Assembly: GCF_019802125.1 (NCBI RefSeq)
Contig: NZ_JAHVHT010000001.1
Span: forward strand, 1,178,001-1,242,000
Direction of reading: 5' to 3'
From: Tateyamaria omphalii
GTDB taxonomy: Bacteria > Pseudomonadota > Alphaproteobacteria > Rhodobacterales > Rhodobacteraceae
DNA: 64,000 bases
Part shown: piece after piece, positions 2,600 to 16,394 of the stretch
Position numbering within the stretch: the stretch's first letter is position 1
Layout of the letters: each line of letters begins with the position of its first letter
Translations under genes and position numbers: made by a program
Notes under the pieces: generated by a model
The model's input: only the letters and a program-made list of their open reading frames with translations
Database searches by the model: none
Told to the model about the DNA's origin: nothing

Positions 2600-3235
2600 T
2601 TAGAACTGTGCGACGGATGTCTTGTCAAAGGCGGCGGTGAAGCCGCTCAGCGACATGTTCAGCTCAACCTTCTGATCAGGCGCGAGGGCCGGAACGATGG
2701 TCAGTTTCGCGTTGGCGCCGCGCCGGAATTGCGCAACTTCGTCCGCGACAAGACCAACCCGCGAGTAACACCCGATCGGGTTGCAGAACGCATAGGGGTA
2801 GCGACGCGCCTGACCGCCATCGACTTCCATCGTCAATTGCTGGGGTAGGGACGTTTCAAGAGGCACGATAATGGTAGCACCTGCCACAGCGCGCCCGCCT
2901 TCGGGCAGGCGGAAGATCGAGATCTCGGCGACGGGCGTGCCCTCTTCATCCTGCATCAGCTGATACATCTGGCAGGGTTCTTCCTGACCTTCTTCGGCCT
3001 TGATGCAGCGCAGCTCCCAGTCACCGATGGTCTCTGCCGTGTAGGTTTGACCGACTTGCGGGGCGGACGCATCCTCACCCAGGCTCAATTGATCCTCGAT
3101 GGCGTTTCCAACATTGGGACCGTCTGTGGCTTGTTCAGTCTCGGTCGTGTCTTCGGGTGTCGTTTCCGCATCTTGTGCCATGACGCTAATTGGCATCAGC
3201 AGGGCGACGGAAAGGGCAATCAGGGACGTGCGCAT
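2600..3235 (-). CDS. Invasion-associated locus B (IalB) family protein
   Basis: A 211-residue exported protein. Residues 1-20 form a signal peptide ending VMA-Q, followed by an acidic low-complexity stretch rich in Glu and Thr (about 21-60) and then the IalB domain, recognisable by the IGDWELRC start, the CQMYQ segment and the CNPIGC cysteine pair. IalB proteins are small periplasmic or envelope proteins of alphaproteobacteria; in Bartonella the name comes from erythrocyte invasion, but free-living relatives have no known biochemical role. It is a single gene, with a terminator-type hairpin upstream (3334-3361) and another downstream. Confidence 0.85.
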   Translation of the reverse strand: MRTSLIALSVALLMPISVMAQDAETTPEDTTETEQATDGPNVGNAIEDQLSLGEDASAPQVGQTYTAETIGDWELRCIKAEEGQEEPCQMYQLMQDEEGTPVAEISIFRLPEGGRAVAGATIIVPLETSLPQQLTMEVDGGQARRYPYAFCNPIGCYSRVGLVADEVAQFRRGANAKLTIVPALAPDQKVELNMSLSGFTAAFDKTSVAQF

Positions 3236-3329
3236 ATCGGTTCCGCTCTTGTTTCATTTCGCAAACTGCTAGCATGGACTGCAACCAGTGTCAGTGCCAA
3301 AGCGCAAAGTTTTCGTGACAAGCGGCAAA

Positions 3330-3405
3330 CAGCAAAAAAGGGGACCCCAAAGCCCCCTTTTCCACGTGTCTTTTTTCTCTCCCCGTCGGACTGGCCGACT
3401 TATGC
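3330..3405 (-). ncRNA. Possible short minus-strand RNA (candidate)
   Basis: On the minus strand there is a -35-like TTGACC (plus 3434-3439) and a -10-like TAACGT (plus 3411-3416) separated by exactly 17 bases. The predicted transcript would start near 3404 and meet the 3334-3361 terminator after about 70 bases. It could be a small RNA, or an attenuated leader for the IalB gene that starts at 3235. There is no open reading frame of note. This rests on motif spacing alone. Confidence 0.35.
3334..3361. terminator. Hairpin terminator with A-tract and T-tract on either side
   Basis: AAAAGGGG (3336-3343) and CCCCTTTT (3354-3361) form an 8-bp stem with a 10-base loop. On the minus strand it is followed by a six-T run, so it is best read as a terminator for minus-strand transcription entering from the right, just upstream of the IalB gene. 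Confidence 0.65.
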
Positions 3406-3410
3406 GCGAG

Positions 3411-3439
3411 ACGTTACGAAAGCAGTTGGCGGCGGTCAA
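3411..3439 (-). promoter_or_regulatory. Sigma-70-type promoter candidate
   Basis: TTGACC-17-TAACGT on the minus strand, pointing toward the IalB gene and the terminator-like hairpin at 3334-3361. It could drive the IalB gene, the short RNA proposed above, or both. Confidence 0.4.
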
Positions 3440-3500
3440 CAGGGAATATGTGAAAAAGAAAACATTGTGAAATCAGGAACTAAACCAGACCGTTCAATTG

Positions 3501-3531
3501 GACAAAAAAAGGCCGCGCACGAAGCGCGGCC
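3501..3531 (-). terminator. Rho-independent terminator of the candidate sRNA
   Basis: GGCCGCGC (3511-3518) pairs with GCGCGGCC (3524-3531) around a five-base loop. The seven A at 3504-3510 become a U-run only for minus-strand transcription, which fixes the direction of the RNA it ends. Confidence 0.8.
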
Positions 3532-3590
3532 CAGTCTGACAGGGAGGAAGTGTTCCGCGCCAGGAGGACTCTCGGCGGGAACAAAAACAC
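3501..3590 (-). ncRNA. Candidate trans-acting small RNA with CCUCC (anti-Shine-Dalgarno) motifs
   Basis: Read on the minus strand, the region folds into a hairpin (arms at 3574-3582 and 3552-3561) whose loop presents CCUCCU (plus 3562-3567). A single-stranded stretch containing CCUCCC follows (plus 3542-3547), then a textbook terminator (8-bp GC stem plus seven T). This layout resembles alphaproteobacterial sRNAs with exposed CCUCC motifs, such as the alpha-r14 family of rhizobia and the CcsR RNAs of Rhodobacter, which can base-pair with ribosome-binding sites. The 5' end is uncertain (about 3583-3605) and I could not identify a convincing promoter. No protein is encoded here. Confidence 0.65.
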
Positions 3591-3656
3591 TATGGCACCC
3601 AATGGTTAACTTTGTATGGTCGCGCCGAAGGCCCCAATGGACAAAAGGTTAACGGC

Positions 3657-5198
3657 ATGAACGATCATATTTTCATCGGTGGTGGCGGGGTCGACTATGC
3701 CGAAAAACAGGGTCTGACGCTAAAGTACGCCAACCGACACGGTTTGATTGCAGGTGCGACCGGAACAGGCAAGACGGTGACGCTTCAGATTCTGGCCGAA
3801 GGCTTCTCGAACGCGGGCGTGCCCGTGTTTCTGTCGGATGTAAAAGGGGATCTTTCCGGCCTCGCGAAATCGGGCACAGCCGAGCACAAGTTGCATGGTC
3901 CATTCACCGAACGGGCGGAAAAGATTGGTTTTTCCGACTACACCTATCACGCCTGCCCGGTGACCTTCTGGGACATGTTTGGTGAACAGGGACATCCGGT
4001 GCGCACAACAGTGTCCGAGATGGGACCGCTGTTGCTGGCTCAACTCCTTGAGCTGACCGATGCACAGGAGGGTATCCTGAACATCGCCTTCCGCCTCGCC
4101 GACGAGGAAGGTATGCCGCTTCTGGACCTCAAGGACCTGCAGGCACTGTTGGTCTGGGTCGGTGAGAACGCCAAGGACCTGTCGCTGCGCTATGGCAACG
4201 TGTCGACCCAGTCCATCGGCGCGATCCAGCGCCGCTTGCTCGTGTTGGAGAACCAGGGTGCAAGCCAATTGTTCGGAGAGCCTGCGCTGGAATTGTCCGA
4301 CCTGATGCGCACGGATGCGGCAGGTAAGGGCATGGTCAACATCCTCGCTTCGGACAAGTTGATGGGCGCGCCGAAGCTTTATGCCACATTCCTTTTGTGG
4401 CTGTTGAGCGAACTGTTTGAAGAGTTGCCCGAAGTCGGCGATCCGGACAAGCCGAAGCTGGTCTTTTTCTTTGATGAGGCGCACCTGCTCTTCGAGGACG
4501 CGCCCAAGGCGCTGGTGGACAAGGTCGAACAGGTCGCCCGTCTGATCCGCTCCAAGGGCGTGGGCGTCTACTTTATCACGCAGAACCCGGCGGATGTGCC
4601 CGAGGACATATTGGGACAGTTGGGCAACCGTTTTCAGCACGCCTTGCGCGCCTTTACCGCGAAGGACCGCAAGGAACTGCGCATGGCTGCAGAGACGTAT
4701 CGGGAGAACCCGCGCTTCGAAACCGAAGAGGCTATTCGCGAGGTGGGCGTGGGTGAAGCCGTAACGTCGATGCTGCAGAAAAAGGGCGTGCCGGGGATCG
4801 TCGAACGGACTTTGATCCGGCCTCCTTCCTCGCAATTGGGACCAATCACCAGCTCAGAGCGTAAGGCGCATCTGGTCGCCAGCGACATGGCCGGCAAGTA
4901 TGACGAAGCGATGGATCGCAAGTCGGCCTTCGAAATCCTGAAGGCGCGTGCCGACAAGGCAGCGACCGAGGCAGCGGAAGCCGAAGAAAAGGCCGAGGAG
5001 ATGGAGCCGGTGCTGCGCGAGTTCAACGCCGGTCGCCGCTATTCCGGGGCGCGTGTGACACGCTCATCGTCACGTACCACTCGACGCGGAGCCAGCTTTG
5101 GCGAAGCCATGACCAAGATGGTCGTGAAAGAGCTGACCGGGACGACAGGTCGTCGCATGGTGCGCGGTATCCTTGGCGGGCTCTTCAAAGGACGCTGA
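3657..5198 (+). CDS. HerA-like/DUF853 P-loop ATPase (YjgR family)
   Basis: A 513-residue ATPase with Walker A GATGTGKT (residues 33-40) and a Walker B-like FFFDEAH in the middle. An Ala/Glu-rich coiled-coil stretch (near 430-460) and a basic C-terminus ending GGLFKGR follow. The family (DUF853, helicase HerA-like C-terminal domain) is widespread but its role is unclear; FtsK/HerA relatives pump DNA or protein, which is inference for this one. I chose ATG 3657 over an in-frame ATG at 3612 because an AAAGG sits about 10 bases before 3657 and the family sequence begins near that Met. Confidence 0.82.
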
Positions 5199-16304: not shown

Positions 16305-16394
16305 TGGCGGAGAGACAGGGATTCGAACCCTGGGTGGGCTTGCACCCACAACGGTTTTCGAGACCGCCCCGTTCGACCACTCCGGCACCTCTCC
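16305..16394 (-). tRNA. tRNA-Ser (anticodon CGA)
   Basis: Ninety bases on the minus strand fold as a class II tRNA: acceptor GGAGAGG pairing with CTCTCC, a long variable arm typical of Ser, T arm with GGTTCGAATCC, and an encoded 3' CCA. The seven-base anticodon loop CTCGAAA gives anticodon CGA, which reads UCG serine codons. Confidence 0.95.

Follow-up and report, generated by a model that had tools for sequence, protein, structure and literature searches.

A SorX-like small RNA gene of Tateyamaria omphalii and a putative antagonist RNA encoded in tandem with it across Rhodobacteraceae

An anti-Shine-Dalgarno (anti-SD) core is common to the small RNAs SorX, SorY and alpha-r8/MmgR and to sRNA1, the RNA described here. 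In Rhodobacter sphaeroides, RNase E cuts SorX out of the ompR-1 3′ UTR (PMC8625941), and SorX contributes there to the singlet-oxygen response via a polyamine transporter mRNA (PMC8307010, PMC8625941). The same papers ascribe to SorX and SorY a role in oxidative stress and report Hfq binding for SorY, CcsR and Pos19 (PMC8307010, PMC8625941), with SorY encoded by a stand-alone gene (PMC8307010), as sRNA1 is. In Caulobacter, SisA-D of the alpha-r8 family repress mRNAs via the anti-SD 10-mer UUUCCUCCCU, and CrfA, which is induced by carbon starvation and, as we understand it, lies apart from its siblings, acts as a sponge of SisA-D (PMC12559287).

By itself, sRNA1 adds one member to this already known SorX/SorY/alpha-r8 type. 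What is new is the tandem of sRNA1 with a widespread complementary partner, RNA2, which is apparently undescribed: our literature search found no paper naming sRNA1 or RNA2. The Paracoccus denitrificans RNAs 'intergenic 60' and 'intergenic 134' could be these genes (PMC5107571), and the trans small RNAs of R. pomeroyi could include them (PMC4809877). The pair was analysed in a 64,000-nt stretch of T. omphalii DNA, referred to below as the window, and the positions given are those of the window:

3657-5198, plus strand: HerA_C (DUF853) ATPase gene (PF05872, E 4.9e-224), the divergent neighbour
3592-3620, plus strand: HerA_C promoter, ATGGCA-17-TATGGT, overlapping the sRNA1 promoter
3609-3589, minus strand: putative sRNA1 promoter, TTAACC (3609-3604) and extended -10 TGC-CATAGT (3597-3589), from a profile over 84 loci
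3582-3504, minus strand: predicted sRNA1 transcript, about 79 nt, from the Rfam SorX match over 3505-3577, the fold and the terminator
3582-3574 and 3561-3552, minus strand: arms of sRNA1 hairpin 1, nine pairs with one bulged C, loop with GUCCUCCU
3550-3533, minus strand: single-stranded sRNA1 core CUUCCUCCCUGUCAGACU, the anti-SD seed
3532-3504, minus strand: sRNA1 intrinsic terminator, 8 GC pairs (3532-3510) and a U tract
3439-3411, minus strand: RNA2 promoter, TTGACC (3439-3434), a 17-bp spacer and TAACGT (3416-3411)
3403-3334, minus strand: RNA2, second small RNA of about 70 nt and putative partner of sRNA1, with promoter, hairpin, GGGGAG and terminator
3399-3385, minus strand: RNA2 hairpin A, GUCGG-CCAGU-CCGAC
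3397-3379, minus strand: RNA2 antiseed CGGCCAGUCCGACGGGGAG, complementary to sRNA1 3546-3527
3235-2600, minus strand: IalB-family (invasion associated locus B) gene (PF06776, E 1.3e-38), downstream of RNA2

From 5′ to 3′, sRNA1 is made up of a hairpin, CUUCCUCCCUGUCAGACU, the terminator and the U tract. A first-pass annotation of this DNA had placed a small RNA at 3501-3590, which is nearly right: the predicted transcript spans 3582-3504 (79 nt), its 5′ end being taken from the -10 box and its 3′ end from the U tract. The elements that it had described were all recovered, namely an 8-bp GC hairpin on the minus strand (3532-3510; nine pairs when a G-U pair with the first T of the tail is included) with the seven-T run that ends the terminator (3510-3504), a second hairpin whose loop carries CCUCCU (3567-3562) and is in part self-paired in the predicted minimum-energy fold, and an unpaired CCUCCC between the two hairpins (3547-3542). 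A 106-nt stretch at this site folds at -41.5 kcal/mol versus -31.2 ± 3.3 for shuffles (z -3.09; 0/200 as low), and three terminator-like matches, two of them the sRNA1 hairpin, were found in 3200-3800 versus 0.9 expected. We conclude that sRNA1 is, very probably, a genuine small RNA gene acting in trans through an anti-SD core; the earlier view of an anti-SD regulator stands to this extent, and the cuckoo (CcsR/alpha-r14) kinship attached to it lacks support.

With the E-value threshold relaxed up to E 10, Rfam returned seven matches to the sRNA1 stretch, of which SorX (RF02784) is the nearest: at 46.2 bits (E 2.4e-10), sRNA1 lies 0.4 under the SorX cut-off of 46.6. SorY (RF02651; 30.9 bits, cut-off 111, E 1.2e-4) and suhB/mmgR (RF00519; 28.3 bits, cut-off 41, E 4.4e-4) match the same stretch, and some sRNA1 orthologs at the same locus exceed the SorX cut-off (50.7 bits in G016 and 48.9 in G004). 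At the gathering score, the sole Rfam match in the window is a tRNA gene (16308-16394).

Like sRNA1, R. sphaeroides SorX consists of a hairpin, a linker with CCUCCCUGU..GAC and a GC terminator; unlike SorX, which resides in the ompR-1 3′ UTR, sRNA1 stands alone between HerA_C and RNA2. In SorY, too, a hairpin precedes a linker of this type, but sRNA1 scores far under its cut-off and a SorY-like gene sits elsewhere in the same genome. The alpha-r8 RNAs (MmgR, SisA-D; RF00519) resemble sRNA1 in having a weak hairpin, a terminator and a broadly similar single-stranded core of the UUUCCUCCCU type; sRNA1 has no adjoining N-formylglutamate amidohydrolase gene. In the window the sRNA1 core CUUCCUCCCU agrees with the alpha-r8 10-mer at 9 of 10 letters, and the 10-mer itself is present in some sRNA1 orthologs (e.g. 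L015 and L016).

Searching the T. omphalii genome for SorX gave four matches, one of them the window locus. The match at C2:131845 (65.4 bits) follows a gene that encodes an OmpR-type DNA-binding domain (PF00486) and is taken as the SorX ortholog, while C1:961314 (56.8 bits) is also the best SorY match (52.2 bits, C1:961312-961388). Since the SorX ortholog and a SorY-like RNA thus sit elsewhere in the genome, sRNA1 is a further paralog. The fourth match, C2:688148 (26.5 bits), belongs to a cuckoo/CcsR-like element (L310, C2:688148-688215) located behind an HSP20 gene (PF00011), in which the hairpin GUCCGAC-CUCCUCCUCCCU-GUCGGAC is followed by a terminator. A suhB/alpha-r8 match above the cut-off is absent from all 20 genomes of the genus and present in some other genera of the family; SorX, SorY and sRNA1 may stand in for suhB/alpha-r8 in this genus. 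The suhB/alpha-r8 comparison set the T. omphalii genome (G000) against G020, G023, G027, G034 and G036; a suhB match at C4:360795 of the former was discarded, as it is without the CCUCCC core.

Of the 20 genomes in the genus, 19, T. omphalii included, have a long DNA match to sRNA1; the same search matched 32 of 61 genomes, with some of the matches outside the genus covering only the 45-nt core of other paralogs. For a family-wide view, the HerA_C N-terminus was located in 249 of 295 genomes, nearly one genome per genus, and 140 regions upstream of HerA_C were taken regardless of whether they held either RNA. By a relaxed pattern, the sRNA1 core and terminator lie upstream of a divergent HerA_C in 118 of these 140. 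Among 114 homologs, UUCCUCCC is present in 101 and the linker CUCCCUG in 112, most of CUCCCUG already being demanded by the homolog pattern. Conservation is higher in the linkers than in the stems. Hairpin 1 varies greatly among genera and still folds better than shuffles (mean z -2.85; 83/114 below -2), so that, as had been anticipated, the stem is kept in most homologs although its sequence has changed. The CCUCC expected to be invariant in its loop, on the other hand, occurs in only 5/114 homologs, conservation falling on the linker instead; GUCCUC is found in the hairpin-1 stretch of 36/114.

Immediately 5′ of sRNA1, the profile of 84 loci is ATACA....TTAACC......TGCCA...T, and on the minus strand of the window the extended -10 box TGC-CATAGT sets the start of sRNA1 near G3582, at the foot of hairpin 1. 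The HerA_C and sRNA1 promoters seem to overlap at 3592-3620 in opposite directions, with a shared box centred on TTAACC, and may be mutually exclusive. By its consensus, CtrA might be the factor that binds TTAACC. Eight further-examined loci bear on the role of the neighbour. HerA_C was not seen beside the pair in seven of them (L357, L358, L359, L361, L362, L363 and L365), all of which keep the hairpin, core, terminator and RNA2 in tandem; at the eighth, L360, HerA_C and RNA2 are present and sRNA1 is absent. Given that the tandem is kept where HerA_C does not adjoin it, the conserved unit looks to be the RNA pair rather than the HerA_C neighbour. A TTAAC-like stretch is retained in 7/7 of these loci, with some letters changed; ATACA is absent, and a clear TGC-type -10 was seen by eye in only three (L361, L362 and L363). 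That the box upstream of sRNA1 serves as the HerA_C promoter only is unlikely, since the seven loci keep the TTAAC-like stretch, and this gives moderate support to a putative promoter of sRNA1's own. One of the seven, L363, belongs to G094, which is taken as a member of the R. sphaeroides group on the ground that no other of the 295 genomes passes the SorY cut-off; it keeps both sRNA1 and RNA2.

RNA2, a second small RNA gene absent from the first-pass annotation, lies about 100 bases downstream of sRNA1 on the same strand. Across loci its layout is TTGAC(C/G), 17 bp, mostly TA(G/A)CGT, AAGUCGGCCAGUCCGAC(G/A)GGGAG, a linker and a terminator. The promoter together with GGGA was found in 129/140 regions; when spacers of 13-22 bp were allowed, the spacer was still 17 bp in 126/128. 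All five hairpin pairs form in 126 of the 129 promoter-bearing regions versus 3.4% of random positions, and changes on both sides are seen at 3/5 pairs among rows preselected on pairing. No Rfam 15 family matches RNA2 (best 17.1 bits, cut-off 77). Our RNA2 covariance model detects it in 260 of the 295 family genomes, mostly as one copy, and in a class-wide sample of 240, most of whose non-matching genomes were not itemised, it matched three family members and four other genomes at 25-29 bits. Scanning named genomes with an RNA2 pattern yielded at least 119 stretches, which combine the promoter, the sRNA1 core and a divergent HerA_C in 84 cases, the promoter and HerA_C without the core in 19 and other features in 16. 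Nearly all of the 80 stretches listed by title are from Rhodobacterales, the exceptions being Ancylobacter, Maritalea and unclassified assemblies. The exact RNA2 pattern in Ancylobacter rudongensis (L229) comes without promoter, sRNA1 core or HerA_C and is probably due to chance.

By these patterns, 114 of the 140 regions contain both RNAs, 14 RNA2 only, four sRNA1 only and eight neither, and RNA2 with a full hairpin is present in 128. Inspection of the 14 RNA2-only regions by eye revealed a diverged sRNA1 in five (L052, L061, L077, L157 and L168) and none in nine. At three of the sRNA1-only loci (L102, L155 and L158) there is an RNA2-like element with 4/5 pairs; in the genome of the fourth (L159, G282), an RNA2 match is located about 20 kb from HerA_C. 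In each of the nine genomes that have RNA2 but no sRNA1 here, SorX is matched above its cut-off. The persistence of RNA2 in these nine regions argues that sRNA1 is not its only partner and, SorX being present in every one of these genomes, that RNA2 probably works for the paralog group as a whole.

In the window, RNA2 CGGCCAGUCCGACGGGGAG and sRNA1 CUCCCUGUCAGACUGGGCCG (3546-3527) pair at 18 positions, interrupted by a single A-C mismatch and a single bulged G. In most genera the sequence is GACUGGCCG, which has no bulge, and in most loci the duplex contains a central mismatch or bulge. The complementarity goes well past GGAG/CUCC into CGGCC/GGCCG. As terminators pair with everything, RNAduplex on whole RNAs was uninformative, and we therefore compared cores and cofolds. 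The cofold gain of RNA2 with sRNA1, the latter taken from 3578 and hence four bases short, is -21.4 kcal/mol versus -8.7 ± 3.3 (minimum -19.6) for 300 shuffles, and over 100 distinct pairs the cognate cores average -35.1 kcal/mol versus -15.8 for shuffled RNA2. With SorX and SorY the cofold gain of RNA2 is -21.4 and -23.1 kcal/mol, respectively. RNA2 AGUCCGACGGGGAG pairs with CUCCCUGUUGGACU, the core of both SorX and SorY in this genome, at 14/14 positions, two of them G-U; since it is the same RNA2 segment that is complementary to these cores, RNA2 probably buffers sRNA1, SorX and SorY alike.

Cognate cores were also compared with swapped ones. In permutation tests, which like the Fisher test ignore kinship, the interaction is -0.48 for the 100 distinct pairs, with 0/20000 permutations as low, and again -0.48 (0/20000) for 96 distinct pairs with one row per genus. 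The whole of this covariation signal comes from the GACUU/AAGU group alone. With one row per genus, sRNA1 GACUU is accompanied by RNA2 AAGU in 8/8 cases, versus AAGU in 5/117 without GACUU, and the 86 pairs without GACUU or AAGU show no cognate advantage (+0.09; 17749/20000 permutations as low or lower), which indicates that outside this group the complementarity is simply fixed. In a tree built from 36 HerA_C proteins, GACUU requires three changes, each with AAGU, and AAGU requires five; an independent-pairs sign test on this tree, underpowered with one pair on well-supported branches, gives p 1. RNA2 has AAGU without sRNA1 GACUU at L061, L074, L149, L102, L155 and L362, and L007, from the same genus as a GACUU row, combines GACUU with CAGU. 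Individual loci show further matched letters: sRNA1 GAACU is met by RNA2 AGUUC in L074, GACUGACC by GGUCAGUC in L357 and GACUUGGCC by GGCCAAGUC in L365.

That RNA2 is largely complementary to the working part of sRNA1 and widespread in the family suggests a built-in pair of regulator and sponge. On balance, and by analogy with the described systems, we favour a model in which sRNA1 is a repressor of the SorX/SorY/alpha-r8 kind acting through its anti-SD core, and RNA2 sponges sRNA1 and probably SorX and SorY. The CUUCCUCCCUGUCAGACU core would pair with purine-rich ribosome-binding sites and so repress translation, probably with Hfq. RNA2, presumably expressed just downstream under a housekeeping-type promoter of its own, would serve as the antagonist RNA: its hairpin loop CCAGU would make the first contact with ACUGG of sRNA1, and the duplex would then extend through GGGGAG/CUCCC, masking the anti-SD core, and would also invade the sRNA1 terminator hairpin at its 5′ arm. 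sRNA1 would thereby be silenced and perhaps degraded, and RNA2 would probably buffer SorX and SorY in addition. Like RNA2, Caulobacter CrfA has a G/A-rich segment that complements the anti-SD core shared by several sibling small RNAs; unlike CrfA, with which we compare it by description, RNA2 stands directly behind one of its siblings and carries a promoter of housekeeping type. A broader version, which we put forward tentatively as a possibility somewhat short of an even chance, is that RNA2 is the near-universal, mostly single-copy sponge of Rhodobacteraceae (the family as grouped by the genome collection), a counterpart of CrfA that controls its tandem sRNA1 as well as SorX and SorY and coevolves with the core of its neighbour where that has changed.

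Other readings of the locus account for part of these results. sRNA1 could be an ordinary extra SorX-like RNA and RNA2 a separate RNA whose GGGGAG and CCAGU serve other partners, be they mRNAs or a protein, the complementarity being a by-product of SD/anti-SD-like sequence or of an old inverted duplication. The lack of covariation outside the GACUU/AAGU group, the nine regions that keep RNA2 without sRNA1 and the six loci with AAGU but no GACUU all fit this idea. It sits poorly with complementarity that runs beyond the GGAG/CUCC motif into CGGCC/GGCCG, with the changes that match between the two RNAs in three lineages, L074 and L357, and with the tandem kept in the seven loci that have no adjoining HerA_C; we consider it unlikely, though worth serious attention. 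RNA2 could also act chiefly on SorX and SorY, as their sponge or regulator, with sRNA1 a decoy or minor partner. The SorX/SorY core of its own genome pairs with RNA2 without mismatch and with an equal or better predicted gain, RNA2 is commoner at the locus than sRNA1 (128 or 129 versus 118 of 140), and genomes without sRNA1 at the locus retain SorX. Against this, the letters of RNA2 match those of sRNA1 where the latter became GACUU or GAACU, whereas the SorX and SorY copies examined mostly have GACUU even where RNA2 has CAGU, which makes such a division of roles rather improbable.

The remaining two readings concern the nature of sRNA1 itself. The first-pass annotation had related it to the cuckoo RNAs (CcsR1-4, alpha-r14), with which it has anti-SD motifs in common, here in both loop and linker. 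The hallmark of cuckoo RNAs is a conserved CCUCCUCCC loop. They also have a DUF1127 gene as neighbour (PMC10253847). Both features are absent at sRNA1, the immediate neighbours of the RNA pair being HerA_C and IalB rather than DUF1127. The loop motif, at 5/114, contradicts this kinship, as does the Rfam result, in which SorX, SorY and suhB/mmgR lead and zero of the seven matches up to E 10 are to alpha-r14. On loop conservation and Rfam we ruled out membership of sRNA1 in this group, and give a cuckoo-type origin very little credence. Hardly any more plausible, indeed the least so, is that the stretch is merely a terminator and a divergent promoter region of the neighbouring genes, with no small RNA genes at all: the upstream box does double as the HerA_C promoter, but the seven loci lacking an adjoining HerA_C keep hairpin, core, terminator and RNA2, and it is the linkers that are more conserved than the stems.

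If the regulator and sponge model holds, a small RNA and an antagonist that is missing from Rfam 15 are common to most genera of a family of major ecological importance, comprising the marine roseobacters, Rhodobacter and relatives. This would explain how several near-identical anti-SD regulators are kept from broad silencing of translation, with RNA2 as the built-in governor of a whole family of regulators that target ribosome-binding sites. In the three genomes searched with a core-complement pattern, no mRNA target stood out. In the T. omphalii genome, 25 sites lie within two mismatches of the core complement versus 15 for the reversed pattern, and at least four of those 25 are the small RNA genes themselves.
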